Below are positions 42,484 to 64,000 of a stretch of 64,000 bases of DNA, piece after piece. A program made the position numbers and the translations under genes. The notes under the pieces were generated by a model. That model was not told the DNA's origin, made no database searches, and saw only the letters and a list, made by a program, of their open reading frames with translations. How positions within the stretch are numbered: position 1 is the stretch's first letter; every line of letters begins with the position of its first letter. Origin of the DNA: Rhodospirillales bacterium (lineage in GTDB: Bacteria; Pseudomonadota; Gammaproteobacteria; Nevskiales; Nevskiaceae); assembly GCA_903970615.1 (NCBI GenBank), contig CAJCJH010000019.1, positions 1-64,000 on the forward strand, read 5' to 3'.

Positions 42484-44519
<2,036 letters not shown>

Positions 44520-46698: not shown

Positions 46699-46708
46699 GG
46701 AGTTTCCG

Positions 46709-46945: not shown

Positions 46946-47214
46946 TTTCACAATCAAATTTCGGCCCTACTGCTGAATCGATCAACGCCGCGTTGGATGC
47001 GGCAAATCCCCACAAGAGACGTCAAATCGAGCAGAGATTCTCCGACAGCTACGTCTCGATAAAGGCCGCGATCGAACGAGGTGTAACTCGTAAAGAGATC
47101 CTCGCGATCTTGGCTTCGCAGGGGCTAAAGATGTGCTCGGCCAAGTTCAAAAAACTTATGGCCAACGAAGCAAGCCATCGCGGAGAAACCCAGGCACAGG
47201 AGGTGAACCCATGA
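46942..47214 (+). CDS. Small helical, probably DNA-binding protein of a mobile element
   Basis: This 90-residue protein is mostly helical. The middle part, AIERGVTRKEILAILASQGLKMCSAKFKKLM (residues 36-66), looks like a helix-turn-helix of the sort found in small plasmid and satellite proteins. Both ends overlap neighbours by four bases, so it belongs to the AlpA-DUF3987 operon. I cannot name the family with certainty. Confidence 0.6.
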   Translation: MISQSNFGPTAESINAALDAANPHKRRQIEQRFSDSYVSIKAAIERGVTRKEILAILASQGLKMCSAKFKKLMANEASHRGETQAQEVNP

Positions 47215-48656: not shown

Positions 48657-48738
48657 ACCCACTCTCCCAGCTGGTGCCTCTCGGCCAGCTGGGAGCTTTG
48701 ATAGATTGCCTGGCGACGAGTTTCCGACTCTAGCGTTT

Positions 48739-48808
48739 AGTCCTGTAAGGACTACATGATTTTTGCCGCTATTCCTGCTAGCGACTAGCAGGAATAGCGG
48801 CATTTTTT
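48739..48808 (+). terminator. Double hairpin terminator after the DUF3987 gene
   Basis: A small hairpin (TAGTCC / GGACTA, 48739-48755) is followed by a perfect 18-bp stem with a 3-base loop (48764-48802) and six T. It lies about 80 bases after the DUF3987 stop. A four-T run before the stem's mirror image means it could also work on the minus strand. Confidence 0.88.
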
Positions 48809-49266
48809 ATTCATGCCTGTTATTCGGTCGTCTGCGTAATGGCCGGAACACTGTCTTCAATACAGTGAATTCGCTTTTCTCGCTTAGAAGATCCCACTTG
48901 AGACTGACCGTGTTCAACGGATTTTGCGGCATCACTGCTCGTCGCTATTCGTAAAGCATGCAACGTCACCACAATGAAAAAACCATATAACCGTATATCA
49001 GGTGAGAACACTTCACCCTCGACTTCTGCACCTATTGGTAAAAACTGCTATCGATTCCGGTACTTTTCACGATGAAACGATGTTGCTTCTTATGGAATAT
49101 ACAAATACATCCATGAGAACAACACGTATTCACTCTGAATGAATATTGGAATCAATTATCACAACGTAACGAAAGTGGTGATGAAAGCAGAAGTCGTGCA
49201 TAGAAAGCTGAAGTGATCTCTGGTTGATATCCAATCAACCACCACATTCACATCTGGGATAACGAC
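48809..49266 (+). other. AT-rich spacer upstream of the Gp2-like replication gene
   Basis: No gene is supported in this AT-rich stretch. A 7-bp hairpin GGTTGAT / ATCAACC with a 5-base loop (49222-49240) lies 27 bases before the Gp2-like start. It could be part of a replication origin or a regulatory leader; neither is shown. Confidence 0.4.
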
Positions 49267-49893
49267 ATGGATAGCAATGAACACAGCAATAAAAATCAGC
49301 ACACCGATCATCAACGGAGAAACCTCGCTCAGCAGAGAAGGTCGTCTAATAACTATGAGACAGCGATAGCTTTTGAAGAAGCGATGTTCGAATGGAGGTC
49401 ACGGCACTTGATTCTCGTTCTGACGCTGACATACAAAGACGATGTTCGTCCATTTATAACTTTCGAGGATATTCAGAGAGACCGCAATACGTTCTTCAAC
49501 AACGCACGCTGCAATAATCTTCTGCAAGCAATAAATGGATACATCTGGAGAATCGAGGAAGGCGGAGGCCTGGGCGGACTCCACTTGCACGTTGTGATTT
49601 TTTACGACGCCGCGAATCGCGCTGATATCTACATCGCACAGATGATTGGCGAGTATTGGTCGAACGTCGTGACACGGGGCCGAGGTGCATATTGGAACTC
49701 AAACGCAGACAAAGACAAGTTCATGCAAGGTCCATGGGGTGATGCAACAGGCCAGATCGACCGATACAATCACGCGAAGAGGGAATCGCTACGCACATAT
49801 CTCGGGCAATACATTGCCAAGGACGATCAACACGTCTCATCGCGGACGAATCCGCACTGGCGCACATTCGGCACCAGTCGGTTTCCGATCTGA
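49267..49893 (+). CDS. Inovirus Gp2 / YagK-YfjJ-like replication protein
   Basis: This 208-residue protein has the core of the YagK/YfjJ-Gp2 group, distant HUH-type rolling-circle initiators. The metal-binding strand GGLHLHVVIFYD is at about residues 98-109, preceded by INGYIWRIEEGGG, and a helix with YLGQYIAKDD near residue 180 gives a candidate catalytic tyrosine. Codon use differs from the core genome. It probably starts replication of the satellite-like element together with the DUF3987 protein. No coat or assembly genes of a filamentous phage are nearby. Confidence 0.75.
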   Translation: MDSNEHSNKNQHTDHQRRNLAQQRRSSNNYETAIAFEEAMFEWRSRHLILVLTLTYKDDVRPFITFEDIQRDRNTFFNNARCNNLLQAINGYIWRIEEGGGLGGLHLHVVIFYDAANRADIYIAQMIGEYWSNVVTRGRGAYWNSNADKDKFMQGPWGDATGQIDRYNHAKRESLRTYLGQYIAKDDQHVSSRTNPHWRTFGTSRFPI

Positions 49894-50147
49894 CAAGTCG
49901 ATAATCCTCTGAGATGCGCACATGCAGCTGCAGTGAGAACAGAAGGTAGAAGGCAAAAAATCTTTCATCGATTTCTTAGCTTGACCCATTTGGGTGGTGC
50001 TCTATCTTCTTCACGCGAACGCTCTGGTGATGACGCTGTTTGCGTTCAATCGTGATTTTAATGTTCGGCGCTTTGCGTCGGCAGGCTTTCGACTACGAAC
50101 GGCAGTTGAGGCGGGTTATAGTCGAACAAGACGGGCAGGTATCAGCC
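49894..50147. other. Spacer between the Gp2-like gene and the IS element
   Basis: About 250 bases without a supported gene. It ends in the 4-bp target duplication AGCC (50144-50147) of the IS1182-family element; the matching sequence continues at 51769. Confidence 0.45.
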
Positions 50148-51768
50148 GAGGCTGTGTGAAAACGTGGTGTGAAGATTGCTGACCAGTAGCTCCATCATTT
50201 GCACGATGGAGCTGCCGCGATGAAGCGATTTATCGAAGGCGAGGACCGATCGCAAAGCGTCCTCTTTCCGGAACGCCTCGACGACTACATCGGCGAAGAC
50301 AATCCGGTTCGGGTTGTTGATGTCTTTGTCGATGAGTTGGATCTCGCCACGCTCGGGTTTGAAGGTGCGGCGCCCGAAGCGACAGGTCGACCGGCCTACC
50401 ATCCGGCAACGCTGCTGAAGCTGTATATCTACGGCTACCTCAATCGCATCCAGTCCAGCCGCCGCCTGGAGCGCGAGACGCAGCGCAACGTCGAACTCAT
50501 GTGGCTTACCGGTAGGCTGGCGCCTGACTTCAAGACCATCGCCGATTTCCGCAAGGACAACGGTGCAGCGATCAAGAAGGTCTGCAGCCATTTCATCGGT
50601 CTTTGCCGTGAGACGAAGCTGTTTTCCGAAGCGGTCGTTGCCATCGACGGTAGCAAATTCAAAGCGGTCAATAACACCGATAGAAACTTCAGCGAGCGCA
50701 AATTGAAAGCCAGGCTGGCACAACTGGAAGAGAGTGTCGGCCGCTACCTGGAAGAACTGGATCGCGCCGATCGCGATCCCACCCGCGTGACGGATGCCCG
50801 GGTCAGCCACATCAAAAACAAGATCACGATCATCCGGGCCCGGATGAAAGACCTGGCTTTACTGGAGCCTCAGATTGAGGCGTCCACCGACGGTCAGATC
50901 TCACTGACCGACCCCGACGCACGTTGCATTGCCACCAGCGGAAAAGGCACCGCCATCGTCGGCTACAACGTCCAGACGGCGGTCGATCTGAAGAACCACC
51001 TGATCGTCGCGCATGAGGTCACCAACCTGGGGCATGACCGCACACAGCTGGCGTCGATGGCGATCAAAGCCCGAGAGGCGATTGGCAGCACCGAACTCAC
51101 GGTCTTGGCGGACCGCGGGTACTTCAGCGGCAAAGAAATTCTTGCTTGCGAGCAGAGCGGGATCACCGCTCTGGTACCGAAGACGATGACGTCGAACAAC
51201 CGGGCCAAGGGCCTTTTTGACAAGCGAGACTTTCACTACGTCCCTGAGACGGACGAATACGAATGCCCCGCGAAACAACGCGCGATCCGTCGCTTCGAGA
51301 CGGTCGAGAAAGGTTTGGTGCTCCACAAATACTGGCCTTCGGCGTGCCCTCGCTGCCCGATCAAATCGCGCTGCACGACGGGTGAGTACCGACGCATCAC
51401 GCGATGGGAAAGCGAGGCAGTGATCGACAGCATGCAAGAGCGGCTGGATCGCATGCCGGAGATCGCACGATTACGACGCCAGACCGTCGAGCATCCCTAT
51501 GCAACGCTCAAGTCCTGGATGGGTGCAACGCACTTTCTCACCCGAACCATCTCCAAAGTGGGCACGGAGATGAGCTTGCATGTACTCGCTTACAACCTGA
51601 AACGAGTGATGCAGATCCTCGGACTGCAACAAACCATACAGATGATGAAGGCCTAGAACCCGGCGCACCGATTCGCGACGAGAAATACTGGGCATGGCCG
51701 AAATCCAGGGCCGGCCTACCACGGCACGTTGCCTCGCCGTCGGCCAAAGCCGGTTTTCACACAGCCTC
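50148..51768 (+). mobile_element. Complete IS1182-family insertion sequence with target duplication
   Basis: The element is 1621 bp long. Its ends are a 16-bp perfect inverted repeat, GAGGCTGTGTGAAAAC (50148-50163 and its complement at 51753-51768). The 4-bp sequence AGCC lies directly outside both ends (50144-50147 and 51769-51772), a target-site duplication. It carries a single intact transposase gene. The perfect ends and intact frame point to a fairly recent insertion. Confidence 0.92.
50220..51656 (+). CDS. IS1182-family transposase
   Basis: This DDE transposase (478 aa) has the N-terminal DUF772-like region NPVRVVDVFVDELDL and RPAYHPATLLKLYIYGYL near residue 55, the DDE-domain part VVAIDGSKFKAVNN near residue 140, and LADRGYFSGKEILA near residue 297 with the second aspartate. 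The cysteine motif CPRCPIKSRC near residue 382 is typical of IS1182. The start is taken at ATG 50220, though an in-frame ATG at 50199 is also possible. No frameshift or stop is present. Confidence 0.93.
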   Translation: MKRFIEGEDRSQSVLFPERLDDYIGEDNPVRVVDVFVDELDLATLGFEGAAPEATGRPAYHPATLLKLYIYGYLNRIQSSRRLERETQRNVELMWLTGRLAPDFKTIADFRKDNGAAIKKVCSHFIGLCRETKLFSEAVVAIDGSKFKAVNNTDRNFSERKLKARLAQLEESVGRYLEELDRADRDPTRVTDARVSHIKNKITIIRARMKDLALLEPQIEASTDGQISLTDPDARCIATSGKGTAIVGYNVQTAVDLKNHLIVAHEVTNLGHDRTQLASMAIKAREAIGSTELTVLADRGYFSGKEILACEQSGITALVPKTMTSNNRAKGLFDKRDFHYVPETDEYECPAKQRAIRRFETVEKGLVLHKYWPSACPRCPIKSRCTTGEYRRITRWESEAVIDSMQERLDRMPEIARLRRQTVEHPYATLKSWMGATHFLTRTISKVGTEMSLHVLAYNLKRVMQILGLQQTIQMMKA

Positions 51769-51772
51769 AGCC

Positions 51773-52206
51773 CAAAGCTGACCGTCGCCGAATCTACTCT
51801 GTTTAAGCCCAAAGCACTCATTGCTCGCCATCGCTAGGGGGAGCCCCCGCTTCCGTCTACGCCTGCTGTTGGAAAGCTAAGCACCGCTCATCGGGCCACT
51901 TGCAACTCCATTGCCTCTGGTAACAATAATTCTTGGAGCGCTGGGACGTGCCTTCTAAACCAACAACAAGGGTATGACCGCGACAAATTCCAATAAATGC
52001 AATGGCTTATATAGTTATGTTGCCATTCACTCGGGGCGACGCATGTCGGCAGTTCTATCGAGTTGTCGCTTGCCAAGCCGCTGCAACTCGGGTGCACCGG
52101 TGCCGGGCACTTCCGATCTCGACAGTCTTTTGCGACTTACTGGCTTAGGGGGAACACTGAGAGACCGAATGAACTTAAGCGTTCACATCACCACCTGGAA
52201 AAAACG
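51773..52206 (+). other. Leader region upstream of the sigma-like gene
   Basis: These 434 bases hold no supported gene. A GC-rich hairpin AGGGGGAGCCCCC occurs near 51836. This stretch must carry the promoter of the sigma-peptidase-helicase operon, but I cannot fix it. An in-frame ATG at 52063 would extend the sigma-like protein by 48 unlikely residues. Confidence 0.4.
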
Positions 52207-52932
52207 ATGGACACGCCGGCATCCGATACTGAGATCGAAGGCCTCGATGACCAATCGTTGCGCGTTAGGCTAGCGCGCAACGATTGGAAAAACGACACCC
52301 TATTCCTCTCTAATGAACAGATATTCCGCATGTTCTGCCGAGCCCGAATGGGCGGAGACAAGGGGCAGCGTGTGGGGCTACTCGCAAACGCGCTCTCTAG
52401 GCGCTTGGTAGCCCTAGCCAAAGGCTTCTCAGTCCGCAGCAAGATCTACCCAGGGATTTACAGCAACCTCGACGAGGTCGCTGAGGAATTGTCCCAGTTC
52501 GTCTGGGAATGTTTGATCAAAAGACCGAAGGACGCGGCGCATGCCGAAAAATACTTTGGGCAACTATTTGCGCGACGCGCGATCGACTTCCAGAAGCGCC
52601 TACTCGCAAAAAAGCGGAGCAAACAAGAGAGTCTGGATGCGATGGACTGGTCTGACGACGACGATGATCCGGAGAGAACGATCCGCGTTATCACGGCACT
52701 TCGACAGGATGCGAATCCGGCCGACGCCATTGCCACTCAGCAGGAGCACGCCAAAGTGGCTGCTCAACTACAGGCCCTCCTAACCAAGCGTGAGCACTAC
52801 GTCTACACGATGATCTACGTCGAAGACATGGCGATCAAGGACATCGCCGCCGCGCTCAAGGTGACGCCTAGAACCATCAACACCTACAAAAATTCCGCCC
52901 TCGAAAAAGTGCGGAAGGAGTTCACCCAATGA
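52207..52932 (+). CDS. Sigma-70-like RNA polymerase sigma factor (ECF type)
   Basis: This 241-residue protein has an ECF-like layout. A region 2-like helix pair lies around EVAEELSQFVWECLIK (about residues 90-105) and a region 4-like helix-turn-helix is at the C-terminus, MAIKDIAAALKVTPRTINTYKNSALEKVRKEF. An acidic linker with five Asp in a row separates them. The start at ATG 52207 removes an unconserved extension. Its stop overlaps the next gene by four bases. Housekeeping ECF factors rarely sit in a defence-like operon, so it may control this locus or adopt a non-transcription role. Confidence 0.75.
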   Translation: MDTPASDTEIEGLDDQSLRVRLARNDWKNDTLFLSNEQIFRMFCRARMGGDKGQRVGLLANALSRRLVALAKGFSVRSKIYPGIYSNLDEVAEELSQFVWECLIKRPKDAAHAEKYFGQLFARRAIDFQKRLLAKKRSKQESLDAMDWSDDDDDPERTIRVITALRQDANPADAIATQQEHAKVAAQLQALLTKREHYVYTMIYVEDMAIKDIAAALKVTPRTINTYKNSALEKVRKEFTQ

Positions 52933-53570
52933 CATCCCAGACCGCTAGGCCTTCACTTGACGAGGTGTTGGACGAGTTCTTCTTTTCTGCTGACAAACCG
53001 TCCGCCAGCATGGTGCTTCGCGCATGCGAAGCTCATCCGAAATATCGCGAGGATATCCTGGAGTTCGCAGCGCTCTGGTCTTCGTATGAGGCTTCTCCGG
53101 AATTCGATAGCGCGGAGCTCGTCGAAGTATCTGACGCTTCCGTTTCGCGTCTTCAAAGTTTCGTACTTAACTGTCTACATGAGGTAGACGCTAAGCCTTC
53201 GAGTGCGGCCAATTCGGATGCGGAAGCAGCCCGCAAAGCTATCCAGACGTTATCAGGCAACCGCCTAAAGAATGCGGCCGTTGCTGCGGGACTAGGTTCG
53301 TCTACGCTACTTCTGACCAAGATTCTCACCAAGAGCATTGTTGACGTGCCGCACAGGGTAGTGAACGACCTCGCGCACTATCTCAAGACGGCATCTGCCG
53401 CGCTCCAACAATGCTTCGAGCCAAACCTCGCAGGCGCCAAAAGCTACAGCGCCACCATACGTCCTAGTACTTCAGCTCAAGAAAGTTGGGAACAGGCGGT
53501 GCGTTCCTTGTCGGTCAGTAGCGACGAGAGACAGCGCCTACTAGCGCTCCAGGACAGGGAGAATGTTTGA
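52929..53570 (+). CDS. Unknown protein in anti-sigma position
   Basis: This 213-residue protein has no family I can name. It is helical. A central stretch, NAAVAAGLGSSTLLLTKILTKS (about residues 116-137), is weakly hydrophobic and could be an amphipathic or short membrane helix. It overlaps the sigma-like gene upstream and the peptidase-helicase gene downstream. The position right after a sigma-factor gene is where anti-sigma factors usually lie; that role is inferred from position only. Confidence 0.7.
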   Translation: MTSQTARPSLDEVLDEFFFSADKPSASMVLRACEAHPKYREDILEFAALWSSYEASPEFDSAELVEVSDASVSRLQSFVLNCLHEVDAKPSSAANSDAEAARKAIQTLSGNRLKNAAVAAGLGSSTLLLTKILTKSIVDVPHRVVNDLAHYLKTASAALQQCFEPNLAGAKSYSATIRPSTSAQESWEQAVRSLSVSSDERQRLLALQDRENV

Positions 53571-56500
53571 TGACCCCGTTTCAGAGGGCTCGGTTTACTG
53601 CCATGCAGTTGCGGACAACTCTGTTCAAAGAGAACGCGTCTTCAGGCATTCCATCAAAGGACGTTATCGATGCCGTGGCCGCCGAAGACGCTGAAGACTT
53701 CGACATCGCTGACGCCGACCCTCACGACGAAGCCCTAGGAACTGCTGACGCTGTCTTAGTGCGCACATTCCGGCAAATCGTCGTGCGCAACGACGTGTCG
53801 AGCGAGCAGCGTGCATTTCTCATAGCGCATGAGTTCGGACATTGGAAACTTCATCACGATGGCCACGACGGGTGCCATAAAGTAGTCGACTCCAACTTCA
53901 ATCCCGAAGAGAGCGACGCCTCTGGATCGCAAAAGATTGAAGCCTATGGCGCCCGGGAGCGGGCTGAACTCCAGGCGAACATTTTTGCAAGAGAGCTTCT
54001 TCTTCCCCGAGATGTCGCCCGCGCGCTGTTTCTCGCTGGAAATACCGCGTCGGAATTGGCAAATGATCTGGATCTACCTCTGGAGCTGGTTCGCCAGCAG
54101 CTCCTCGACGGATTGCTGCTCCCTGAGGCGTTTGAGGACAGTGGCGAGCCCGCCGCGCCGATTAAGCCCACCAAGGAACAGGTGGCTGCGGCCACGTCGT
54201 CGGAGAAAACGTCCCTCATAGTGGCTGGACCAGGCACCGGCAAGACGGCCACTTTGCTTATGCGGGTGCAGCATCTCCTCTCAACCGGTGCAAAGCCCGG
54301 GGAGTTATTGCTGCTTACCTTTTCAAATCGGGCTGCGCGGGAGCTTGTCGATCGCCTTCAACAGCTTGGCGTCGCGAACGCGCATGACATCTGGGTCGGT
54401 ACGTTTCACGCCTTTGGTATGGAATTTCTACGGAAGAACGCGGACCAATTTCAGCTGCAGCCGCGCTTCGGGGTCGCCGACAAGATGGCGCAAATTGCGG
54501 TTCTTGAGCCGCACATCTATGGCCTGGATCTGAAAGCCTTCAATCCGCTCGGAGATCCACTCGACTGGCTCAAGGAAGTGGTTTCGACTATTCAACGCGC
54601 TAAGGACGAACTGGCGGATGCTGAAGGGTTTTCAGCAGCAGTCGAGAAGTCGACGCAGAAAACCTCGACGCAAGCGTTGGCCAAGCAACGCGATGTCGTG
54701 AAGCTATACAAGTGTTATGAGTCGAGGCTCAGTTCCAATGACAGCCTCGTCGACATGGGCGATCTGGTCATGCTTCCCGCACTCGCGCTAACCAACAAAT
54801 ATTCCAAGCACGCAGCAAGCGTGAAACGGTTTAAGCACATACTTGTTGACGAATATCAGGACGTGAACCGAGCGAGTGCCCAGCTCGTGAAAGCTCTCGC
54901 GAGCCATGCCACGAGCCTTTGGGTGGTTGGTGATGCAAGACAGGCTATCTATCGGTTTCGTGGCGCGTCTATGCGCAATATCGTGCGTTTCGCCGACGAC
55001 TTCCCCAAGCACAAAACCTTCCCTCTTAATGAGAATCGGCGCAGCTACGCGGAGGTCATCCGCGTATTCGAGCACACAGGCCGTGAAGGCAACCCTCTTC
55101 AGCTGGTACTCCCGCTCGATGACGTGGCGCCCGTGCGCGGAAGCAGCGGCGTCAAGCCGCGCCATATTCAGTGCGCAAATGACGACATTGTTCATGGGGA
55201 ACTCGCGGCCAACGTACGCCGCATCCACGGTCTAGGTTTGGCATACCGAGGGCAAGCCGTACTTGCGAGCACCCATGAGACCTGCGGCGCAGCAGCGGAC
55301 GCTTTGAATGCCGCGGGTGTGCCTGTCCTGCATCTTGGCGACATCTTCCAGCGTCCCGAGATCAAGGACCTGTTAACGCTGCTACAGCTTTTCATCGATA
55401 GGTCCGGCAGTGGACTGATTCGTGTTTCCCGCCTTCCTGGCCTCGATCTACCGCCTAACGATGTGGAAATGCTATTGAGTTGGTGTAGGGCGAAGCGACC
55501 AGCTCCTCTCTCTTGGATTGCTGCGCCTCCCCCAGGGCTTTCCACCGCAGGGCAAGCAGCTCTCAAGCGTTGGGATTCAGTATTTGAAGACCTCGCCTCC
55601 ACGGATTCTCCGTGGGACGTCGCATGCACGCTGCTACTCGACCGAACAGGAATACTTCGTCCGCACCTCGCCGGCAGCAACATTCTTGATATCACTCGTC
55701 GGATTGCGCTCTGGCAGTTCATTTATTATTTGCGCGTTCCCGATGGCGGCTGTGCGTACCAGACTATTGGCAGCTTCATCACACGCTTGCGACGCCGCCT
55801 GCGCGTAGGCGACGACCGGGAACTACGCATCCCTCCGCCAGAGGCTGATAGCCTCGATGCGGTGGCAGTCATGACGATTCACGGAAGCAAGGGCTTGGAG
55901 TTCGAGGCCGTACACCTGGTCGACATCGATGCCAGACATTTCCGCAAGAGCGTCGATTCTGAACTTCTCCCCCACTCCCTCCTTAGCTCTGTTGCTTCCA
56001 CCGACGGATTCGAGGAACAAAGCGAGGCGTCCAATAAGCTTTATGTCGCTCTGTCTCGCGCCAAAGAGCATCTAGTACTCTACGAAACCAGAGGGATGTA
56101 TGACGCCTCGTGCGTCGCGGCCATCAGCGGCGCAGCACATCTATTCGAGAAGGTTCAGGGCACGGCCGTCGCGCACAAGCCTGCGGTGTCTCCATCTGTC
56201 TGCGCGCCCAGACCGGCAACCGCAGCATATGAGCTAACCGGCTTCCTCTCTTATAGGGTGTGTCCGCGGCGCTACTACTACGACTTCATCAAGGAGCTTA
56301 GCCCGGCTGCCGGACTGCACCCAGCCGCACTGATTGAGGGAGCAGTCATGCGTGAGCTTTTCGCTCCTTACGGCCAGGAGCCAGGAGTGGCGCCGCCAGA
56401 AGTAGACAGGGTACTCGCATCATTGGGACCAGCCTTCAATGACTCCTTGCCTCACCTGAAAGCCTATGCAGATCAGTTGTTGGCGACCGGGCGTATTTGG

Positions 56501-56893
56501 TTAGGAGCGCAACGCGCTGCGATGGCGAAGCCCTTCGAGATTAAGTGCGCAGACATTCGTATGTCCGTATCACCTCACCGCGTCAGAAAGTCAGGGTCAG
56601 TTGTCACTATTGAATTCGTACGCGCCAAACCCTCGGGCAAGCTGTCACGGCAAAACAAGGCTATGAAGTGGATTCTGAAATACCTGTCCGAGGCCTATCC
56701 GGGGCGCTCATTTCAGGGCCAACTTTTCGTACTGAGCACAGGCTCTGAGGAATCGGTCTCCCCTTACGGTCGGCTCCCGGATAACTTCAATCTGGTGTCG
56801 ATTGCACAGGGACTCATGTCGGGACACTTTGCAGCTAGCCCTAATCAGTGGGAATGCCCTAAGTGCAGGCATTTCGTGTACTGCCCAGCCTAA
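53570..56893 (+). CDS. Fusion of ImmA/IrrE-like metallopeptidase, UvrD-like helicase and AddB-like four-cysteine domain
   Basis: The 1107-residue protein joins three parts. Residues 1-180 hold a zinc peptidase with HEFGHWKLHH (His87, Glu88, His91) and a later QANIFARELLLP, the ImmA/IrrE pattern. Residues 185-830 hold a superfamily 1A helicase: Walker A GPGTGKT (Lys225), LTFSNRAARELVDRL, Walker B VDEYQDVN (Asp427-Glu428), GDARQAIYRFRGA, and late motifs VMTIHGSKGLEFEAV and NKLYVALSRAKEHL. Residues 870-1107 have four cysteines spaced C898 then C-x2-C-x5-C (1096, 1099, 1105), the AddB/Cas4 iron-sulfur layout. The nuclease motif itself is weak (VTIEFVRAKPSG), so cleavage activity is doubtful. Start: ATG overlapping the previous stop (TGATG). 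Confidence 0.85.
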   Translation: MTPFQRARFTAMQLRTTLFKENASSGIPSKDVIDAVAAEDAEDFDIADADPHDEALGTADAVLVRTFRQIVVRNDVSSEQRAFLIAHEFGHWKLHHDGHDGCHKVVDSNFNPEESDASGSQKIEAYGARERAELQANIFARELLLPRDVARALFLAGNTASELANDLDLPLELVRQQLLDGLLLPEAFEDSGEPAAPIKPTKEQVAAATSSEKTSLIVAGPGTGKTATLLMRVQHLLSTGAKPGELLLLTFSNRAARELVDRLQQLGVANAHDIWVGTFHAFGMEFLRKNADQFQLQPRFGVADKMAQIAVLEPHIYGLDLKAFNPLGDPLDWLKEVVSTIQRAKDELADAEGFSAAVEKSTQKTSTQALAKQRDVVKLYKCYESRLSSNDSLVDMGDLVMLPALALTNKYSKHAASVKRFKHILVDEYQDVNRASAQLVKALASHATSLWVVGDARQAIYRFRGASMRNIVRFADDFPKHKTFPLNENRRSYAEVIRVFEHTGREGNPLQLVLPLDDVAPVRGSSGVKPRHIQCANDDIVHGELAANVRRIHGLGLAYRGQAVLASTHETCGAAADALNAAGVPVLHLGDIFQRPEIKDLLTLLQLFIDRSGSGLIRVSRLPGLDLPPNDVEMLLSWCRAKRPAPLSWIAAPPPGLSTAGQAALKRWDSVFEDLASTDSPWDVACTLLLDRTGILRPHLAGSNILDITRRIALWQFIYYLRVPDGGCAYQTIGSFITRLRRRLRVGDDRELRIPPPEADSLDAVAVMTIHGSKGLEFEAVHLVDIDARHFRKSVDSELLPHSLLSSVASTDGFEEQSEASNKLYVALSRAKEHLVLYETRGMYDASCVAAISGAAHLFEKVQGTAVAHKPAVSPSVCAPRPATAAYELTGFLSYRVCPRRYYYDFIKELSPAAGLHPAALIEGAVMRELFAPYGQEPGVAPPEVDRVLASLGPAFNDSLPHLKAYADQLLATGRIWLGAQRAAMAKPFEIKCADIRMSVSPHRVRKSGSVVTIEFVRAKPSGKLSRQNKAMKWILKYLSEAYPGRSFQGQLFVLSTGSEESVSPYGRLPDNFNLVSIAQGLMSGHFAASPNQWECPKCRHFVYCPA

Positions 56894-56995
56894 GTCGAAC
56901 ATTCCAACCACTTCCGATTTCCAGGGCGTCCTGCGACTTACCACCTATAAGCGGCGCATCCCGCGCGGCTTACCAAGGTGAGTAGGAGACCAGAA

Positions 56996-57499
56996 ATGCC
57001 AACCCGCATCTACATCCAATCGGAACACTTCCCCGACGTCAAACTCGTCGAAGTCGATGACGCTGCCACTATCGACGAGGTCAAGCATGTTGCCCTTGCG
57101 CTGCTGCCGCCCGGCACCGACGCAACCGAGCTTACGCTGTCGATCGAGGACGACGACGACGACGACGACGCACATGCTCACGCGACACACATCAAGCACC
57201 TGAAGAAGGAGCACGGCGTCCGGCTGCACCTGCATCGCTGCAAGCACGTGGAAGTTCATGTGCGTTTCGGGACGGAAATCGTTCACCACCAGTTACGCCC
57301 GGCGACGACTGTGGGCCGCGTCCGCATGTGGGCTGGCCACAAGCTGGGGATGGCGCCCGGCGACGTCGCCGAGCACGTGCTGCAGGTTGCCGGCACCACC
57401 GAACAGCCGGATGTCGACACCCACATCGGCACGCTCACGAAGTGCCCGCACTGCTCGGTGACGTTCGATCTGGTGCCGGCGCACCGCATCAACGGCTAA
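56996..57499 (+). CDS. Tandem ubiquitin-like (beta-grasp) protein of a bacterial conjugation system
   Basis: The protein (167 aa) contains two beta-grasp-like modules: residues 3-50 and about 84-162, joined by an acidic/His linker with seven Asp in a row (residues 52-58). The second module ends with CPHCSVTFDLVP and a C-terminal HRING, so the chain already ends in glycine. That matches multi-ubiquitin-like proteins used by bacterial E1-E2 systems such as Bil/Bub. The ATG at 56996 has GGAG about 7 bases before it. Neighbours E2-like, JAB and E1-like complete the pathway. The gene starts 103 bases after the peptidase-helicase gene. Confidence 0.85.
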   Translation: MPTRIYIQSEHFPDVKLVEVDDAATIDEVKHVALALLPPGTDATELTLSIEDDDDDDDAHAHATHIKHLKKEHGVRLHLHRCKHVEVHVRFGTEIVHHQLRPATTVGRVRMWAGHKLGMAPGDVAEHVLQVAGTTEQPDVDTHIGTLTKCPHCSVTFDLVPAHRING

Positions 57500-57513
57500 T
57501 CAGGAGGGCGGCA

Positions 57514-57972
57514 ATGGCACCGGATGAGCAAGCTCTGCGTGCCGACCTTGCGTCGGCGCGCTTCCTTTCAGGAGAGGATCGCAATCGCTGGCAGTTCAAA
57601 AAGCTAGAGTGGCCTCACCTCTATGTGAGCGTCATCGCCCGCGACTGCCGCGAGTACACGTTGCGTCTGAACTGCAGCGGCTTCCCTGCGACACCGCCGA
57701 CGGGAACATTCTGGGACCTGGCATCGAGCAGCCGTCTCCCGTTCGACAAGTGGCCCAGCGGCGGCGAGCGTCTACGTCTGGCGTTTCGGCCGGACTGGAA
57801 GAACGGCGACGCGCTTTACATCCCCTGTGACCGTGACAGCTTCGTCGGTCATGACGGGTGGATATCTCAATATCCGCAGCTCATTTGGAAGCCCACTAAG
57901 GGCATCAGCCACTATCTGGAGGTTGTCCATGAACTTCTTCAAAGCCGGGACTATGTCTGCGCCGCTGCTTGA
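57514..57972 (+). CDS. E2-like ubiquitin-conjugating-fold protein
   Basis: This 152-residue protein fits the bacterial E2-like fold. NCSGFPATPPTGTFWD (residues 53-68) corresponds to the YPxxPP-type segment, and Cys105 in LYIPCDRDSFVGHDGW (residues 101-116) is the likely thioester cysteine, with a nearby histidine-aspartate pair. The ATG at 57514 has a very good ribosome site (AGGAGG). It would take the activated ubiquitin-like protein from the E1-like enzyme and pass it to a target. No RING or other E3 gene is seen. Confidence 0.82.
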   Translation: MAPDEQALRADLASARFLSGEDRNRWQFKKLEWPHLYVSVIARDCREYTLRLNCSGFPATPPTGTFWDLASSSRLPFDKWPSGGERLRLAFRPDWKNGDALYIPCDRDSFVGHDGWISQYPQLIWKPTKGISHYLEVVHELLQSRDYVCAAA

Positions 57973-58426
57973 GGCACCGGCGCAGGTCTGGGCCGACCTT
58001 TTCGCGCATTTGCGTACGCAGGGTGCTGGCGTCCGTGAGAGTGGCGCCTTCCTGCTTGGGCACAAGAGCGAAAGCCGCCGTGTGATGACGCGTTTCCTCC
58101 CTTACGAACAACTACAGGCTGACGCACTGCACAACGACTACGTCACCCTGAGCGCGGCCAGCTTTTCCAAACTCTGGGAGTTCTGTCGCTCGGAGGGCGT
58201 TGCTGTCGTTGCGGACGTGCATACCCATCGCTTCGGGCCGGGCCAGAGCCGCTCGGACCGCGCCAATCCCATGATCGCGATCAAGGGTCACGTTGCTCTC
58301 ATCGTGCCTCAATTCGCGCAAGGCAATGTCTGCCTCCAGGATTTGGGCCTTTACGTCTACCAAGGCGAGCACAGATGGATCGCTTTTTCGGGTTCCGATG
58401 TCAGCCAGCTCGTGCGACTTAGCTGA
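57929..58426 (+). CDS. JAB/JAMM metallopeptidase, likely deconjugase of the ubiquitin-like system
   Basis: This 165-residue protein has a complete JAMM motif: Glu37 in ESGAFLLG, His98 and His100 in DVHTH, then Ser107 and Asp110 (HxH-x6-SxxD). Such zinc peptidases remove ubiquitin-like tags or trim their precursors. Because the ubiquitin-like protein here already ends in glycine, tag removal is the more likely job. The ATG at 57929 lies inside the end of the E2-like gene and has GGAGG upstream, so translation is coupled. Confidence 0.87.
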   Translation: MNFFKAGTMSAPLLEAPAQVWADLFAHLRTQGAGVRESGAFLLGHKSESRRVMTRFLPYEQLQADALHNDYVTLSAASFSKLWEFCRSEGVAVVADVHTHRFGPGQSRSDRANPMIAIKGHVALIVPQFAQGNVCLQDLGLYVYQGEHRWIAFSGSDVSQLVRLS

Positions 58427-58440
58427 TTTTGGAGACACCA

Positions 58441-59808
58441 ATGACCACGCTCGACGCGGACTCCATGCACCGCCTAGCCAAGATGGCGTTGGACGCAGGG
58501 GAGGTATCTTCCCCGGAAGAAGCGGTCGAGTTGTTTGCTCGATATCGCTTGCGCCTTCACGCTGGCTCGGGCTGGGCGGAGACACTGGCTGGTCAAGCCT
58601 GCTTCCTGACGGCCCTCAACACGGCAGCGCGCGCCTTCCTGGGCGGAGTTGAGGTGTATGGAGACCTCAACTCTGTGCTTCGCGTACCTCTTTACGAGGG
58701 ACGGGAGGCAAGGTACGTGATCGCAGAACTCGGCGGCACGGTGGTCAGCAGTGCTGATACGGACTTGCCGACCCTGGTAATTGGATCGACAGCACCGACC
58801 ATGCCACCACCCTTCTGCGTACAGCTGAGCTGGGACCACTGGCGCTGCTCCATTGCCCCAGCTTCTGCTGGCACCCCCTTGATTTGCACAAATGACAATC
58901 CACTTGCCGGTGTCGCCGCCGCTGCCCTGGGTGTCAATGAGGCGTTCTCACACATTCGCGGAGACCAACCCGACGCTGGGCACCGCAGCTTCGGGTTGTC
59001 GCTTTGGGACCCACTCGCCGTCACGGACGGGCGCGACGAAGTACATCAAGGCCCTGCTCTTTCCTATCTTCCGCAGGCTTTGTGGCTCGTGGGGCTGGGG
59101 CATCTAGGCCAAGCGTACGCCTGGATGCTGGGGATGCTTCCGTATCCGTCTGATGCACGTCCACACTTGGTTCTTCAAGACTTCGATAAGGCAGCGAAAT
59201 CGAACCTCAGCACGTGCATGTTGCTCTCAGCTGCTGACCTGAAAAAAAAGAAAGTCCGTGTCGTCGCTCAGCGCTTAGAAGCAGCAGGCTTTACGACGGC
59301 CCTCGTCGAGCGCCGCTTTGGCCCCCACCATCAATTGATGGTCGACGAGCCCACGACGGTCCTTTTCGGGGTTGACAACCCGACGGCACGCAGAGACCTC
59401 GAAACGGCAGGATTTTCCTTCGCCGTCGAAGCAGGATTGGGCAGCGGCTACAGAGATTTCCGCAACATCAGAACGCACACGTTTCCTGGCTCAAAAACGC
59501 CAACGCAAATCTGGACTGCGGATACAGCAGTCCAGGCCGGAGTCGAATTGAGCGATACGTACAAAAAACTTGCAGAAGAGCGCGATGATCTCTGTGGAAT
59601 AACACAGCTGGCTTCTCGCGCCGTGGCTACGCCGTTCGTTGGTTCATTGGCTGCAACGCTGGTCTTGGCAGAGGTCATGCGGCCACTTCATGGCGGTCCC
59701 ATTCATGCCACATTGGACTTGCAGATGAAGAGCCTCAGATTCCGCTCTGGTTCTCCGCCCACAAGAAATCAGAGTTTGCTGCCGCCCTACACGTTACGCG
59801 CCAACTGA
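58441..59808 (+). CDS. E1-like ThiF-family activating enzyme
   Basis: This 455-residue protein has an N-terminal region of unknown fold (residues 1-205) and a C-terminal ThiF/E1 domain. The Rossmann motif is WLVGLGHLG (215-223); QDFDKAAKSNLS (246-257) matches the nucleotide-binding D-x-D...N element; Cys385 in DDLCGITQLASRAVATPFVG (residues 382-401) is the likely catalytic cysteine. It would adenylate the glycine end of the ubiquitin-like protein and pass it to the E2-like protein. The ATG at 58441 has GGAG six bases before it. It is the last gene of the ubiquitin-like operon. Confidence 0.87.
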   Translation: MTTLDADSMHRLAKMALDAGEVSSPEEAVELFARYRLRLHAGSGWAETLAGQACFLTALNTAARAFLGGVEVYGDLNSVLRVPLYEGREARYVIAELGGTVVSSADTDLPTLVIGSTAPTMPPPFCVQLSWDHWRCSIAPASAGTPLICTNDNPLAGVAAAALGVNEAFSHIRGDQPDAGHRSFGLSLWDPLAVTDGRDEVHQGPALSYLPQALWLVGLGHLGQAYAWMLGMLPYPSDARPHLVLQDFDKAAKSNLSTCMLLSAADLKKKKVRVVAQRLEAAGFTTALVERRFGPHHQLMVDEPTTVLFGVDNPTARRDLETAGFSFAVEAGLGSGYRDFRNIRTHTFPGSKTPTQIWTADTAVQAGVELSDTYKKLAEERDDLCGITQLASRAVATPFVGSLAATLVLAEVMRPLHGGPIHATLDLQMKSLRFRSGSPPTRNQSLLPPYTLRAN

Positions 59809-60318
59809 GCATGTAGCCGGTTTCTTAATCGCGCCCGATGGATGACTTCGACATCTGGGACCCATGCGCCAGCTCAGGCGCGTGCCGATGCTGCGCTTTG
59901 AAGCTGCAATTATGACCGTCCGCTTCTGGCACTCAACTGACCCTCGACGGGCGCTAACCAGGCCGAAGCGACTGTTCGAGACGAGCAGCTTTCAGCTAGG
60001 CTAGAAGCGTGCAATGTTGTAACAGTCTTAAATATACCTATGTAGGATGCCTAGCCGGCTCACCGTCATTAATAGGGGATTGGAGCCGGTGATCGGCATG
60101 ACGCTAACACCCCGTTTCACACGATCGTAGCCGACTCGGCTACCAGAAACCCTATGTCACTCGCAGTCGCAGTGGCCGGATACAATCACTTGAAACGACG
60201 GCTAAAATCAGCCTGAAACAGGCGGCTAGATACTGCTTTGATCCGCCCCCAAGTTGAAGTCGCAAGACCAGCCTGGACTACATCGTCGATTGCACAAACT
60301 TCGAATTAAAAATTCCGT
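59809..60318. other. Spacer between the ubiquitin-like operon and the convergent AAA+ cluster
   Basis: About 510 bases with no supported gene. It contains an inverted repeat CCGGCTC / GAGCCGG (60055-60061 and 60083-60089, 21-base loop) and many in-frame stops. The two operons converge here, so terminators are expected, but I see no strong hairpin followed by T. Confidence 0.45.
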
Positions 60319-60747
60319 CTACGTCCCCTTACTCTGATCTGGCTCCGTAACCTCGAACTTGATCTCTCGCTTTGCCCGAATATCAGCGAGCGATCTTTCA
60401 TCCAGCAACAAGCAGGGCAGCTTCTGCGTCAGTCCCTTGAGAATCACCTTGCCATCTTTGTCAGTGAAATAAAGATCGAGACCTAGCTGAAATGATTTTG
60501 GATCGTTCTGTAGCGCTTTAACGACGACGTGTCCGCCAACAAAAGCGATACCTTCCGACTTCTGTAGTTTGATGATCAACCGATCCGTATCGTCGGAAAA
60601 TCGAGAAACAAAAGCATCGATTGAAACCGGTTCGATTTTGTGATGCTCGTTCAGCGTATCGAGCAGCAAGTCCAACTGCGAAAGAACTCCGCGAACCTCA
60701 TTGCTGATAAATTTTCCTACAAAGCCATCAATGAAATTCTTTTTCAT
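60319..60747 (-). CDS. Small soluble protein of the AAA+/membrane cluster
   Basis: This 142-residue protein has no recognisable family. It is mixed alpha/beta with no signal peptide or membrane segment; the C-terminal part contains a run of alternating hydrophobic strands (LGLDLYFTDKDGKVILKGL). It is the last gene in a minus-strand cluster of four, 10 bases after the membrane-anchored small protein. It may be a partner or substrate of the AAA+ ATPase; that is inference. Confidence 0.7.
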   Translation of the reverse strand: MKKNFIDGFVGKFISNEVRGVLSQLDLLLDTLNEHHKIEPVSIDAFVSRFSDDTDRLIIKLQKSEGIAFVGGHVVVKALQNDPKSFQLGLDLYFTDKDGKVILKGLTQKLPCLLLDERSLADIRAKREIKFEVTEPDQSKGT

Positions 60748-60757
60748 GGCATGGCGC

Positions 60758-61108
60758 TCAGGCGGCTAAGGTCAGTTGCTGCTCGACATCGCTGGTGATG
60801 TCGAGCTTGGCGCGATCGTTCATTTTTTTCAGAATGTCTTCGGGAATGGACTGGGGCGACACCTCACGCGAAACAACGGTTTCTGTCCATTGCTGCTTTT
60901 CCTTGTCGTATGAGTAGTAATAAAAAACATTCTTCATCGTTGATTCGACTTTCTCTAGATACGCCTTGGCACCCTGAAGTTGCTCCTTCACCACCGGGGG
61001 AAGCTTCTCCCAGACCTTACCTAGCCATGCCCGAATTTCTTTCCAGAACGCAGCCAAGACAACGGCGCCGATAACTGCGGCACCCGCCAGAATAATTACC
61101 GGGATCAT
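60758..61108 (-). CDS. Small membrane-anchored protein of the AAA+ cluster
   Basis: This 116-residue protein has one N-terminal hydrophobic segment (IPVIILAGAAVIGAVVLAAFW, residues 2-22), followed by an amphipathic helix (IRAWLGKVWEKLPPVVKEQL) and a soluble part with FYYYSYDKEKQQW. The ATG overlaps the AAA+ stop (ATGA), so the two are coupled. It could anchor the ATPase at the inner membrane. No family recognised. Confidence 0.72.
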   Translation of the reverse strand: MIPVIILAGAAVIGAVVLAAFWKEIRAWLGKVWEKLPPVVKEQLQGAKAYLEKVESTMKNVFYYYSYDKEKQQWTETVVSREVSPQSIPEDILKKMNDRAKLDITSDVEQQLTLAA

Positions 61109-62088
61109 TTCATCAATTCCTTAACGCGCGTATCGCCAATTTGTTCTCGAACATAGTCTTCAGGGACGTGACGCTCCGTAGTGGTAGATCCACGTTGTTT
61201 GAGACCGCTATTTGCCCGCTTTCCAGCCAAGATTTCATCGATTGCCCGCCCAAAGTCTTCCATGCTCACCGCGGAGCGCGCCCTTCGTGAGGCCGACAGG
61301 GCAGACTTGATGACGCAATTCGAAATCTCCGCCCCGGACAAGCCCTCGGACATCGAGACCAGCTTCTCGACATCGATCTCGACCGGCATCTTGGGTGGAA
61401 TAAACTTGGCCCAGAGTTGCCGCCGCGCATCCGTATCTGGCAGCGTGAAATGGATGTGCGAGATGATTCTTCGAATAAAAGCCGGATCGTAGTTCTCCAT
61501 GAAGTTGGTTGCGAAGATCACCATGCCTCTATGCTGATCCATCAGGGTCAGTAGCACAGAGCGCGTTTGGTTTACGCTGACATCCGTAGAACTCGACATA
61601 TTGGTGACGCGCCGACTCAAAATTGCATCGGCCTCATCAAAGAAAATGATGGCACCGCTGTTCTTGGCTTGATCGAACAGGGCAACCAAATTTTTCGAAG
61701 TTTCGCCGACGTACTTGGATTCGATTTCGGCGTAACTCACCAGGATCAAATCCTGTTCCATTTCGAACGCCACCGCATGGGCGGCGGTGGTCTTGCCGGT
61801 TCCCGGAGCTCCGTGGAAATTGATCGACGATTGGCGGTGATATTTATGCGTCTCGGAAAGCCCCCAACCGTCGAAAACCTTGTCGTAATGCGCCTTGAAC
61901 GCCAGAAAATCCAGCAGCGACGAGCGCGTTTCCCCTGACACAATCAGGTCGCCCAGGCGATATAGCGGCTTGATCGTTTCAAAGCGCGCAGGCACGCCTG
62001 ATTTTGCCGTTGACTCCTGGATCGGCGTTGCAATTTGCTCGGCGGCACCAGGTGCGTTTGAGTCGTCTAATTTCTTGCCGATTCCCAT
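61105..62088 (-). CDS. AAA+ ATPase, membrane-linked cluster
   Basis: This 327-residue protein has a single AAA+ module of the classic (katanin/fidgetin-like) kind. Walker A is GAPGTGKT (residues 93-100), a pore-loop-like ESKYVGET is near residue 123, Walker B IIFFDEAD ends near residue 154, the sensor 1 asparagine is in IFATNFMENYD near residue 195, and arginine fingers are in FIRRI near residue 206. A helical small domain (GLSGAEISNCVIKSAL) follows. It likely unfolds or remodels a protein or complex. It lies between two membrane proteins, which suggests action at the inner membrane. Confidence 0.88.
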   Translation of the reverse strand: MGIGKKLDDSNAPGAAEQIATPIQESTAKSGVPARFETIKPLYRLGDLIVSGETRSSLLDFLAFKAHYDKVFDGWGLSETHKYHRQSSINFHGAPGTGKTTAAHAVAFEMEQDLILVSYAEIESKYVGETSKNLVALFDQAKNSGAIIFFDEADAILSRRVTNMSSSTDVSVNQTRSVLLTLMDQHRGMVIFATNFMENYDPAFIRRIISHIHFTLPDTDARRQLWAKFIPPKMPVEIDVEKLVSMSEGLSGAEISNCVIKSALSASRRARSAVSMEDFGRAIDEILAGKRANSGLKQRGSTTTERHVPEDYVREQIGDTRVKELMK

Positions 62089-62114
62089 GATTGATTTCTC
62101 AGCTGTTTAACGGA

Positions 62115-62963
62115 TCAGGAAATGTCCAGCTCAATTCTTTCGTACGCCCGAGTGTCGGGCTCGGAATTGAGCATGCTCTTGAAGATCACGGACTGGTCCG
62201 CGCCGGGAAGACGGGTTTGGATGCTCTCCATGTGTCCCTGCGAGACCTCATGATTCAGCAGGTACGCCAATAAGAAAGGCGATCCCTTGACCGCGCCCAC
62301 TTTAGAACGGATGTCGTCCACGGACATCAAGCCAAGTGCATGGATGTGGGGCAGGTCGGGCGTTATCAGATCGATATAAATCCGACCATACTCGGCCAAG
62401 GTACTTCTCAGGAACTGGAGCTGCTGCTCCATTTTGTTTCTGTTTTCCGGCTCGAATATGTAGCGTTTCTTGAACGGATACAGAAACGTGTGGATGACAG
62501 CGATTACCGCGAGAATTCCGCCCGCCGAATCGGAAAAGCCGATATCGTGCGTCACCCAAAATGTGATGTAGGCAACAATCGGGCACATCACGATGGCGCC
62601 TAGCTGTTTGCCAAAGGTCAGCGCCGTGGAGGGCGCCGCAAGTTTCTGCTGAATGAGCTGGGATTCTTTTTGATTTTTATCTGCAAGATTAACCAGCACA
62701 TCGAGCTTACGATCTCGGCTGACGTTCTTTTTAGAGAAATTAAAGTTGTCGCTGTCAAACGTGTATTGCTTCCTGGAGTTTGCCTTAACTGCGCTCATCA
62801 AAGCGATGACCCAGCCAATAAATGTCCATCCCCCGAAGAGATTCAGAACCAGCACCGCTCCAGCGCCATCGATCTTCTTTCTGAATGCAAGACTCGCTGG
62901 ATAAAAAAATAGATGTAATGCAAAAAAAATGATGACGTCCGTTTGATCTCCAGAATGATTCAT
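62115..62963 (-). CDS. Multi-pass membrane protein with superinfection-immunity-like N-terminus
   Basis: This 282-residue protein has four likely membrane segments. The first two (about residues 9-26 and 36-60) with NLFGGWTFIGWVIALMSAV resemble the superinfection immunity (Imm) family of phage T4-type proteins. Two more lie in the middle (about 124-165), followed by a soluble C-terminal helix region. It starts the AAA+ cluster, 26 bases upstream of the ATPase. The Imm-like motif suggests an effect on the envelope or DNA entry; that is inference. Confidence 0.75.
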   Translation of the reverse strand: MNHSGDQTDVIIFFALHLFFYPASLAFRKKIDGAGAVLVLNLFGGWTFIGWVIALMSAVKANSRKQYTFDSDNFNFSKKNVSRDRKLDVLVNLADKNQKESQLIQQKLAAPSTALTFGKQLGAIVMCPIVAYITFWVTHDIGFSDSAGGILAVIAVIHTFLYPFKKRYIFEPENRNKMEQQLQFLRSTLAEYGRIYIDLITPDLPHIHALGLMSVDDIRSKVGAVKGSPFLLAYLLNHEVSQGHMESIQTRLPGADQSVIFKSMLNSEPDTRAYERIELDIS

Positions 62964-63062
62964 GGTCGTCCCTGATTCGCCCCGAATCTCATCTCAATTA
63001 CGTCAGTCACGGCAGAGTGCCCAGCGTCGGGCAGACCGATACGCACAACCGCTCATGGCGAT

Positions 63063-63224
63063 TCACCGGATCTCCACAGCGGATATGATTTTTGCCTTGC
63101 CGCTGTTTCTGCCTTTTACGATCTCTTTGGCTTGAGAGGCAGAGCTTGCTGCGACATCGACGATGCGAACGACCTGGTCGTTGCCTTGCATCCTGTAGTG
63201 AACTTTGAATTTCTTGCCGATCAT
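63063..63224 (-). CDS. Small protein coupled to the WYL regulator
   Basis: This 53-residue frame begins IGKKFKVHYRMQGNDQVVRIVDVAA. Its ATG overlaps the stop of the WYL gene (ATGA) and is preceded by GGAG, so it is probably translated by coupling. The basic, beta-rich sequence shows no known family. A longer frame to 63311 overlaps the WYL gene and is less likely. Confidence 0.6.
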   Translation of the reverse strand: MIGKKFKVHYRMQGNDQVVRIVDVAASSASQAKEIVKGRNSGKAKIISAVEIR

Positions 63225-64000
63225 GCGTGAACTCCGGAAGTATTCGATGAGCAGGTCAGGCGAGGCTGTGCCAGGTATCCCCGCAACCCAATCTCCAGTT
63301 CGTCCTGCCATGCCTCCGGGCGGACGATCCGCACATGCGGCAGCCAGTACCGCACGATCGGCACGATCTGGTTGGGATGCGCGAATTTCCCCGAAACCAG
63401 CAAGCAGCCACCCTCCAGTTCCTGTTCGATCACCTGTCTGGCGATGAGCTTGCGGCGGCGGAAGTAAACGGCGGCCGGTGCGGCCACGGTCAGCACCACT
63501 TCGGTTTTCCGTGTGTTCAGCCAGATGCTGTCTTCCTCGTCCAGCATCTGGACGACGGTGGCGTCGGCGGTGAAGCCTGTTTCCATGAGTTCGGGCGCGC
63601 GGAGCTTGCCGAAGGCATAGGCTTTGGATTTGCCATCGTTGACGGCGGCGAGATACCAGACCCCGTTGTTATTGATCAGGCGGTAGGGTTGTGCTTCGAC
63701 CTGCTTGGTTTCAGCTTCCTTGGCGTAGGTAAAACGCAAACAGCGACGCTCGCTGATGGCGCGTTGCAGCGTGCGGAAATCGGCGAGCCTGGAGCGTAAA
63801 TCTTCATGGCTGGGACCGTGAATGCTGAAAGTGTCCCGTAGCCGGGTGTCGAATAGCTCGCGGAAGAATTCGTTATCGAGCACCGGGAACAGACCCTTTA
63901 GCCCAGCCAGTGCAGCGAATCGTTCGACATCCCGAAAACTCATCCGCCCCAGGAAGGCCGGATCGAGCGCGAAGCGCTTGCCGGTCTTCTCGATCGGCAG
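63221..64000 (-). CDS. WYL-domain transcriptional regulator (cut by window edge)
   Basis: About 260 residues are visible; the frame continues off the right edge, where the DNA-binding domain is expected. The WYL domain is clear: RCLRFTYAKEAETKQVEAQPYRLINNNGVWYLAAVND (about residues 86-122 counted from the edge) and a C-terminal region PVVRYWLPHVRIVRPE. WYL regulators often control defence loci (as in CapW and BrxR), sensing nucleic-acid ligands. Here the downstream genes on the same strand are the membrane-AAA+ cluster. Confidence 0.88.
   Translation of the reverse strand: MPIEKTGKRFALDPAFLGRMSFRDVERFAALAGLKGLFPVLDNEFFRELFDTRLRDTFSIHGPSHEDLRSRLADFRTLQRAISERRCLRFTYAKEAETKQVEAQPYRLINNNGVWYLAAVNDGKSKAYAFGKLRAPELMETGFTADATVVQMLDEEDSIWLNTRKTEVVLTVAAPAAVYFRRRKLIARQVIEQELEGGCLLVSGKFAHPNQIVPIVRYWLPHVRIVRPEAWQDELEIGLRGYLAQPRLTCSSNTSGVHA

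Follow-up and report, generated by a model that had tools for sequence, protein, structure and literature searches.

Known Bil systems (BilABCD) tag phage virion proteins. In IrrE-DdrO of Deinococcus and in ImmA-ImmR of mobile elements, an M78 protease is paired with a helix-turn-helix (HTH) protein. CapP has been described as a protease that is activated by single-stranded DNA and cuts the repressor CapH, and the CapH+CapP pair controls immune operons (PMC13373217). The same paper places CapK+CapS and CapW/BrxR, which respond to DNA damage, upstream of immune operons (such as Bub and the cyclic-oligonucleotide-based anti-phage signalling system CBASS; for CapK+CapS also Bil) (PMC13373217). 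In this study, we analyzed 64,000 nucleotides from a Rhodospirillales bacterium (Nevskiaceae in GTDB; contig CAJCJH010000019.1 of assembly GCA_903970615.1, positions 1 to 64,000 of the forward strand), hereafter called the window, in which a bilABCD operon is preceded by three genes that we designate sigma, mid and hel. Our reading, to which we give a probability of roughly 0.68, is that the seven genes form one unit in which BilABCD is served by a dedicated three-gene controller, with the induction mechanism proposed below. That the conserved trio and its twin promoter-like sites, which vary between lineages, form one unit is well supported by sequence comparison.

The window operon has the four genes, the gene order and the catalytic residues of Bil, and it adds the upstream trio, which lies outside the four-gene definition. 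As with CapH+CapP, genes for an HTH-like protein and an adjacent ImmA/IrrE protease precede an immune operon, and a profile search places CapP closest to the hel protease domain among solved structures. However, CapH+CapP is a two-gene stand-alone module, whereas the hel protein joins its protease to a UvrD helicase and a four-cysteine region. The mid protein of the window is larger than CapH, has additional helices at its N-terminus and resembles HTH proteins only weakly, and the locus adds a sigma factor and twin promoter-like sites. The combination of an M78 protease and an HTH protein is also that of IrrE-DdrO and ImmA-ImmR, neither of which is known to have a helicase fusion or a sigma factor of its own. 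CapK+CapS and CapW/BrxR are kinase/STAS or WYL proteins, and a Pfam scan of the trio reported no STAS, GHKL or WYL domains. The same trio can precede Bub (multiubiquitin-ThiF-JAB, with a JAB of the DUF6527 type) operons, whose payload genes differ from the BilA-BilB-BilC-BilD payload of the window. A literature search, which missed the primary Bil and Bub papers, found no title or abstract opening on a sigma/ImmA-UvrD module before Bil or Bub.

A three-gene set before bilABCD

The genes and the two promoter-like sites of the proposed unit, with E-values, are as follows.

52111-52139, + strand: promoter-like site P1, TTCCG-N17-CGACTTA, 67 nt before the sigma start codon
52207-52932, + strand: sigma, a sigma-70-family factor of the extracytoplasmic function (ECF)-like kind, 241 amino acids
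52929-53570, + strand: mid, an all-helical protein of 213 amino acids with a possible XRE-type HTH at about residues 99-165
53567-56893, + strand: hel, an ImmA/IrrE (M78) protease, UvrD helicase and C-terminal four-cysteine region in 1108 amino acids
56912-56940, + strand: promoter-like site P2, TTCCG-N17-CGACTTA, 55 nt before the bilA start codon
56996-57499, + strand: bilA, a ubiquitin-like (ISG15-like) protein with a C-terminal Gly; PADLOC BilA 1.6e-53
57514-57972, + strand: bilB, E2-like with Cys105; PADLOC BilB 3.3e-62, Pfam DUF7665 2.2e-71
57929-58426, + strand: bilC, a JAB/JAMM deconjugase; PADLOC BilC 2.7e-63
58441-59808, + strand: bilD, E1-like with Cys385; PADLOC BilD 8.8e-173, Pfam ThiF 1.5e-7

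Bil relatives were gathered by a BilD profile search of genome contigs, and the best 80 of 145 relatives were used. At least 4.7 kb of DNA before bilA was available in 67 of these 80 loci, to which per-gene profiles built from plasmid loci and the window were applied. The full trio preceded bilA in 63 of the 67 loci, and mid and hel together in 65. Because the BilD profile was built from trio-bearing operons, sampling leans to the nearest Bil branch, and the rate of 63/67 is valid for that branch rather than for all Bil. The two remaining loci were L040, where a rearranged bilD is all that is present, and L103, which has no trio. The median gap between hel and bilA was 109 bp, counted up to the point where the profile match begins. 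Trio-bearing loci were found in Pseudomonadota, Planctomycetota, Chloroflexota and Acidobacteriota.

Plasmids were investigated through 49 records in which 80% or more of the helicase was matched, 25 of them from Acinetobacter (one opened) and 24 from other hosts (15 opened as annotated regions, 9 by the positions of bilD and the helicase only). The seven genes occurred in identical order on annotated plasmids of Variovorax, Xanthomonas, Rhizobium phaseoli, Aminobacter and R. leguminosarum. Beside the helicase of the 24 non-Acinetobacter plasmids stood bilD in 14, multiubiquitin/ThiF (Bub) genes in 9 and a bilA fragment in 1 (Aquincola), and the opened Acinetobacter plasmid carried Bub. In a tree of 78 helicases made by a quick method, the 11 Bub-linked ones fell in two places among the Bil-linked ones, the odd one out being L107 on a long branch. 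Well-supported branches forced at least 2 changes of Bil/Bub partner, compared with a mean of 10.6 when labels were shuffled.

The window sigma protein matched Sigma70_r4_2 (6.7e-7), and a match to the NCBIfam sigma70-ECF model over a long stretch (1.9e-9) lay just under the cut-off. Among 44 relatives, Sigma70_r4_2 was found in 35, GerE in 11 and Sigma70_ECF in 9; the list for these 44 contained no Sigma70_r2 family. A profile search of PDB returned sigma factors, the best being a sigma-H/AlgU chain (2.2e-7). In the predicted structure, with a predicted local distance difference test (pLDDT) score of 89.5, region 4 superimposed on CnrH, SigW (5wur) and SigD with a root-mean-square deviation (rmsd) of 1.2-1.3 over 62-65 residues. 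The structures listed as matches to the full model carry titles that name sigma factors or the sigma chains in RNA polymerase complexes, and full-length alignments to sigma factors spanned residues 23-241, mostly at large rmsd. By these results, the sigma protein has a sigma-70 region 4, with predicted -35 binding.

The predicted structure of mid was all-helical (pLDDT 86.4). Residues 99-165 resembled XRE-type HTH domains at low and non-specific scores, among them those of DdrO (Z 4.1-4.2) and CapH; against the N-terminal domain of CapH, residues 99-164 gave Z 4.4 and an rmsd of 3.0 over 61 residues. Among 56 mid relatives, HTH_31 was found in 4, HTH_3 in 3 and HTH_26 in 1. The window protein itself matched no HTH family, and the mid profile gave nothing firm against PDB. 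From its position and the weak fold match, mid is possibly an anti-sigma factor or a repressor.

For hel, Pfam gave Peptidase_M78 (2.4e-12) and UvrD-helicase (1.7e-60), and the M78-domain profile had three matches in PDB, led by CapP (7t5t; 2.7e-5) and then IrrE (0.0018). The HExxH motif was present in 60 of 60 full-length relatives and Walker A in 59 of 60. The C-terminus keeps four invariant Cys in 20 of 20 aligned rows, and by eye we saw no clear sign of the acidic ligands that a RecB-type nuclease should have; it looks like a RecB/AddB-type iron-sulfur pseudo-nuclease, again as judged by eye.

Several loci depart from the standard arrangement. An Aquincola plasmid (L106, 12428-12757) carries the whole trio with a bilA fragment (123 bits) and no match to bilB, bilC or bilD, which we regard as a decayed or truncated unit. 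In L040 (9533-11269), from a metagenome-assembled genome, BilD without its first ~43 residues lies in frame behind a stretch that looks nuclease-like by eye, a fusion or rearrangement. L117 (3644-6111; Cupriavidus sp. EM10) has sigma and mid and no hel, and adjoins a 295-amino-acid reverse-strand gene without a Pfam family. In Robbsia (L111, 3611-11195), the trio is divergent from a Bub operon, and the two may share one intergenic control region. Genes for an ATPase and an S8 peptidase, IetAS-like by name only, occur near Bil on plasmids, in Xanthomonas (L023, 1-2278) and in the same Cupriavidus locus (L117, 10175-15372).

Paired promoter-like sites

The alignment of close relatives contained TTCCGATTT-N11-TGCGACTTA before bilA, repeated before sigma, in flanks that otherwise aligned poorly. 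We scored the twin sites as the best match between the pre-sigma and pre-bilA regions over 18 positions. A score of at least 15/18 was reached in 59 of 74 loci (67 Bil and 7 Bub), all of them Bil, compared with 3 of 148 shuffled gaps. Within the 67 Bil loci, 59 reached at least 15/18 and 49 at least 16/18; at the lower threshold, the controls with reversed upstream DNA and with a stretch inside hel each gave 1/67. TTCCG was present in the gap between hel and bilA in 66 of 76 loci, compared with 8 of 76 control stretches. The -10-like heptamer varied between lineages (CGACTTA, CGATCAA, GAATTAG, CGATTAT). In the 58 loci with TTCCG in both regions, the two heptamers of the best pair were identical in 28 and differed at no more than one position in 46. 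Such pairing of heptamers that vary by lineage is expected if a sigma factor and two promoters co-evolve. When the 3.17-Mb source genome was scanned for the window motif, with no more than 2 mismatches allowed, there were 3 matches, all at this locus, and the backwards pattern gave 1.

Two further sequence elements were found.

58393-58421, + strand: third copy of the motif with 1 mismatch, inside the 3' end of bilC and 19 nt before bilD
56949-56971, + strand: imperfect inverted repeat in the bilA leader, AAGCGGCGC-ATCCC-GCGCGGCTT, identified by eye

The third copy scored at least 14/18 in 13 of 19 close loci, the window included, and 10/18 or less in L023, L038, L039, L042, L043, L045 and all 40 distant loci tested. 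It is possibly an internal promoter or the result of conserved codons; since codon conservation could explain it, we left it out of the main claim. The leader repeat is present in close relatives, and by eye its arms change together in some of them (GAGC/GCTC, AAGC/GCTT, GGGC/GCCC). It may serve as a site for a repressor or fold into an RNA hairpin.

The bilABCD cassette and its surroundings

The original prediction described a complete conjugation cassette of four genes at 56996-59808. Its reading frames were confirmed, and the profile search that it had proposed returned PADLOC-DB models (1.6e-53 to 8.8e-173) covering essentially the full length of BilA, BilB, BilC and BilD. The order Ubl, E2, JAB, E1 and the long N-terminus of the E1-like protein, singled out there as worth comparing, are present and prove ordinary: the order is the standard one of BilABCD, and the N-terminus corresponds to an inactive adenylation domain described for BilD (PMC11354881). 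The operon does lack an E3 gene as noted, which is usual for Bil and not a peculiarity. The limits were drawn too narrowly, with the unit starting at about 52.1 kb; the three genes at 52207-56893 and the twin sites were missed, and what is peculiar lies in the sigma/HTH-like/ImmA-helicase trio outside them.

The catalytic features named in the prediction, namely the E2-like Cys105, the JAMM motif, the E1 nucleotide loop with Cys385 and the C-terminal Gly of BilA, were intact and kept in relatives. Cys105 of BilB was invariant across a 50-row alignment, and the PCD motif was found in 73 of 74 BilB proteins, the exception (L064) having PSD. The JAMM pattern HxH-x(6-14)-SxxD fitted 78 of 78 BilC proteins and a stricter H[T/S]H pattern 51 of 78. 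GxGxLG and DxCG, the place of Cys385, were present in 80 of 80 BilD proteins, and Cys385 was invariant in 5 of 5. The window BilA ends in -RING with no tail after the Gly; a C-terminal Gly was found in 53 of 74 relatives, and [V/I/L]-[N/E/Q]-Gly within 12 residues of the end in all 74. The bilB and bilC genes overlap by 44 nt.

Other searches were less specific. BilA matched no Pfam family above the cut-off, and the match of BilC to Prok-JAB (0.0018) was under the family cut-off. The BilD-profile search of PDB reached ThiF and eukaryotic E1s, with no entry named Bil among its matches. The BilB profile, compared with PDB by sequence only, found no E2, and single-sequence PDB searches with BilA, BilB and BilD gave nothing firm. 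Our own multiubiquitin, Bub-E1 and Bub-JAB profiles had no match in the window at E 1e-3. Taken from sequence, the four genes are near certain to be a canonical, complete Bil operon of the known kind. In 100 genomes (that of the window and 99 relatives), a BilD match that extended past the general ThiF segment was found in 2, the window's own and that of a bacterium of the same family (G037), whose Bil is cut by the contig end. Bil is therefore sporadic among these relatives.

On the minus strand at 60319-63943 lie genes for a WYL/WCX regulator, an Imm_superinfect-domain protein and an IetA-like AAA ATPase, with smaller genes. This is a candidate second defence operon, with the WYL gene at the position of a CapW-like controller. 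On the 5' side of sigma are a transposase gene (50199-51656), a DUF3987 protein and a Rep-like gene. GC content falls from ~0.62 to 0.49-0.58 around 45-56 kb and is 0.51-0.54 past 59 kb, with the bil genes at ~0.59-0.62. We regard about 44000-64000 as the edge of a mobile or defence island.

Proposed mechanism and alternatives

By analogy with CapH+CapP and from the twin sites, we infer that the sigma factor drives bilABCD and its own gene, that mid restrains the system and that hel removes mid; use of the sites by the sigma factor, cutting of mid, sensing of DNA and an anti-phage outcome are all part of this proposal. The sigma factor would bring RNA polymerase to P1, for sigma-mid-hel, and to P2, for bilABCD. 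In resting cells, mid, which is HTH-like and possibly an anti-sigma factor, would hold the system off. The helicase part of hel would meet abnormal DNA, such as the ends or single strands left by damage or by replicating phage, and the ImmA/IrrE protease of hel would then cut or remove mid. The freed sigma factor would amplify its own expression and turn on bilABCD, after which BilD (E1), BilB (E2) and BilA (Ubl) would tag target proteins and BilC would recycle the tag. We give even odds to a broader proposal, in which a portable trio has exchanged its Bil or Bub partner at least twice while the sigma factor and its promoters co-evolved, so that the defence would be induced by damaged or phage DNA.

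A number of observations weigh against this reading. The 67 Bil loci include close or identical relatives and do not count as independent events. In L103 a divergent HTH-ImmA/IrrE protein replaces the trio, the Bil locus of G037 has no trio in 6.3 kb upstream, and six more distant plasmid Bil loci (L116-L121) are all without the helicase, only L117 having sigma and mid. A cross-locus control, which pairs the gap and the upstream region of different loci, reached 15 in 23 of 134 comparisons; it is not low, since a promoter is common to related lineages. At this spacing, none of the 7 Bub loci showed the twin motif. With free spacing, only L112 was clearly above its control (14/14 versus 11) and the other six were within one of theirs, and the twin-motif claim is therefore confined to Bil loci. 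No structure match of the sigma model reached E 0.001 or lower (best 1.1e-3), and the fold matches of mid were weak (best Foldseek E 0.72; Z under 6). The roles given to mid, as a repressor, an anti-sigma factor or a protease substrate, are ones that we infer.

The trio might instead be a separate defence effector, a helicase-protease that accompanies Bil and acts on the DNA or proteins of phages, the sigma factor merely expressing both. SF1 helicases are known parts of defence systems, PADLOC gives RTasHel (9.9e-55) and GajB models for hel, and its Walker A motif is nearly always kept. We consider this unlikely; its nuclease-like C-terminus, as seen by eye, keeps the four Cys and not the usual acidic metal ligands, and other Bil operons have, in place of the trio, an ImmA/IrrE protease accompanied by an HTH domain or a separate HTH gene. 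In Bil of Paraburkholderia caffeinilytica, the genes in the trio slot matched PADLOC capP (6.1e-9) and capH (1.3e-5, second to HTH_VI at 8.9e-10), and by annotation Mesorhizobium AR02 and R. anhuiense have divergent HTH and ImmA/IrrE genes there.

A little more doubtful is the idea that the sigma protein is a LuxR/GerE-type activator that binds the twin sites as direct-repeat operators with a spacing of about 20 bp. The window protein does match GerE (2.7e-6), several relatives are annotated as LuxR or response regulators, and the two half-sites are alike in the close group by eye. However, Sigma70_r4_2 outnumbers GerE by 35 to 11 among the 44 relatives (Sigma70_ECF, 9), the full model finds structures titled as sigma factors or chains, the half-sites are by eye unlike each other in several lineages, and the 17-bp spacing is what we take to be promoter-like.

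It is very improbable that this is an ordinary Bil operon under housekeeping control, with chance neighbours upstream in a defence island. The region does have a lower GC content, with a transposase upstream, and some Bil operons have no trio, but chance neighbours are contradicted by the trio in 63 of 67 loci, in four phyla, in constant order and at a median of 109 bp from bilA, and by the twin sites; we rejected this explanation. A sulfur-transfer (ThiS/MoaD-type) pathway, for which the distantly ThiF/MoeB-like E1 domain might speak, is the least credible explanation and was also rejected, in agreement with the original preference for conjugation, on four full-length Bil matches, an intact E2-like Cys and JAMM motif, and NCBIfam MoeB/ThiF scores (0.0015-0.034) far under their cut-offs.

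We return to the seven-gene unit with its dedicated controller. On how ubiquitin-like defences are switched on, a 2026 paper reports CapW or CapH+CapP in 219 of 544 Bub operons and CapK+CapS in 59 of 544 (PMC13373217), which by these reported counts leaves about half without a named controller. Together, the upstream trio and the matching promoter-like sites appear to be an alarm switch of a new type for these defences. If this is true, a sigma factor with twin dedicated promoters would provide self-amplifying activation, unlike simple derepression, and the fusion of helicase and protease would tie a DNA motor directly to proteolytic signalling.

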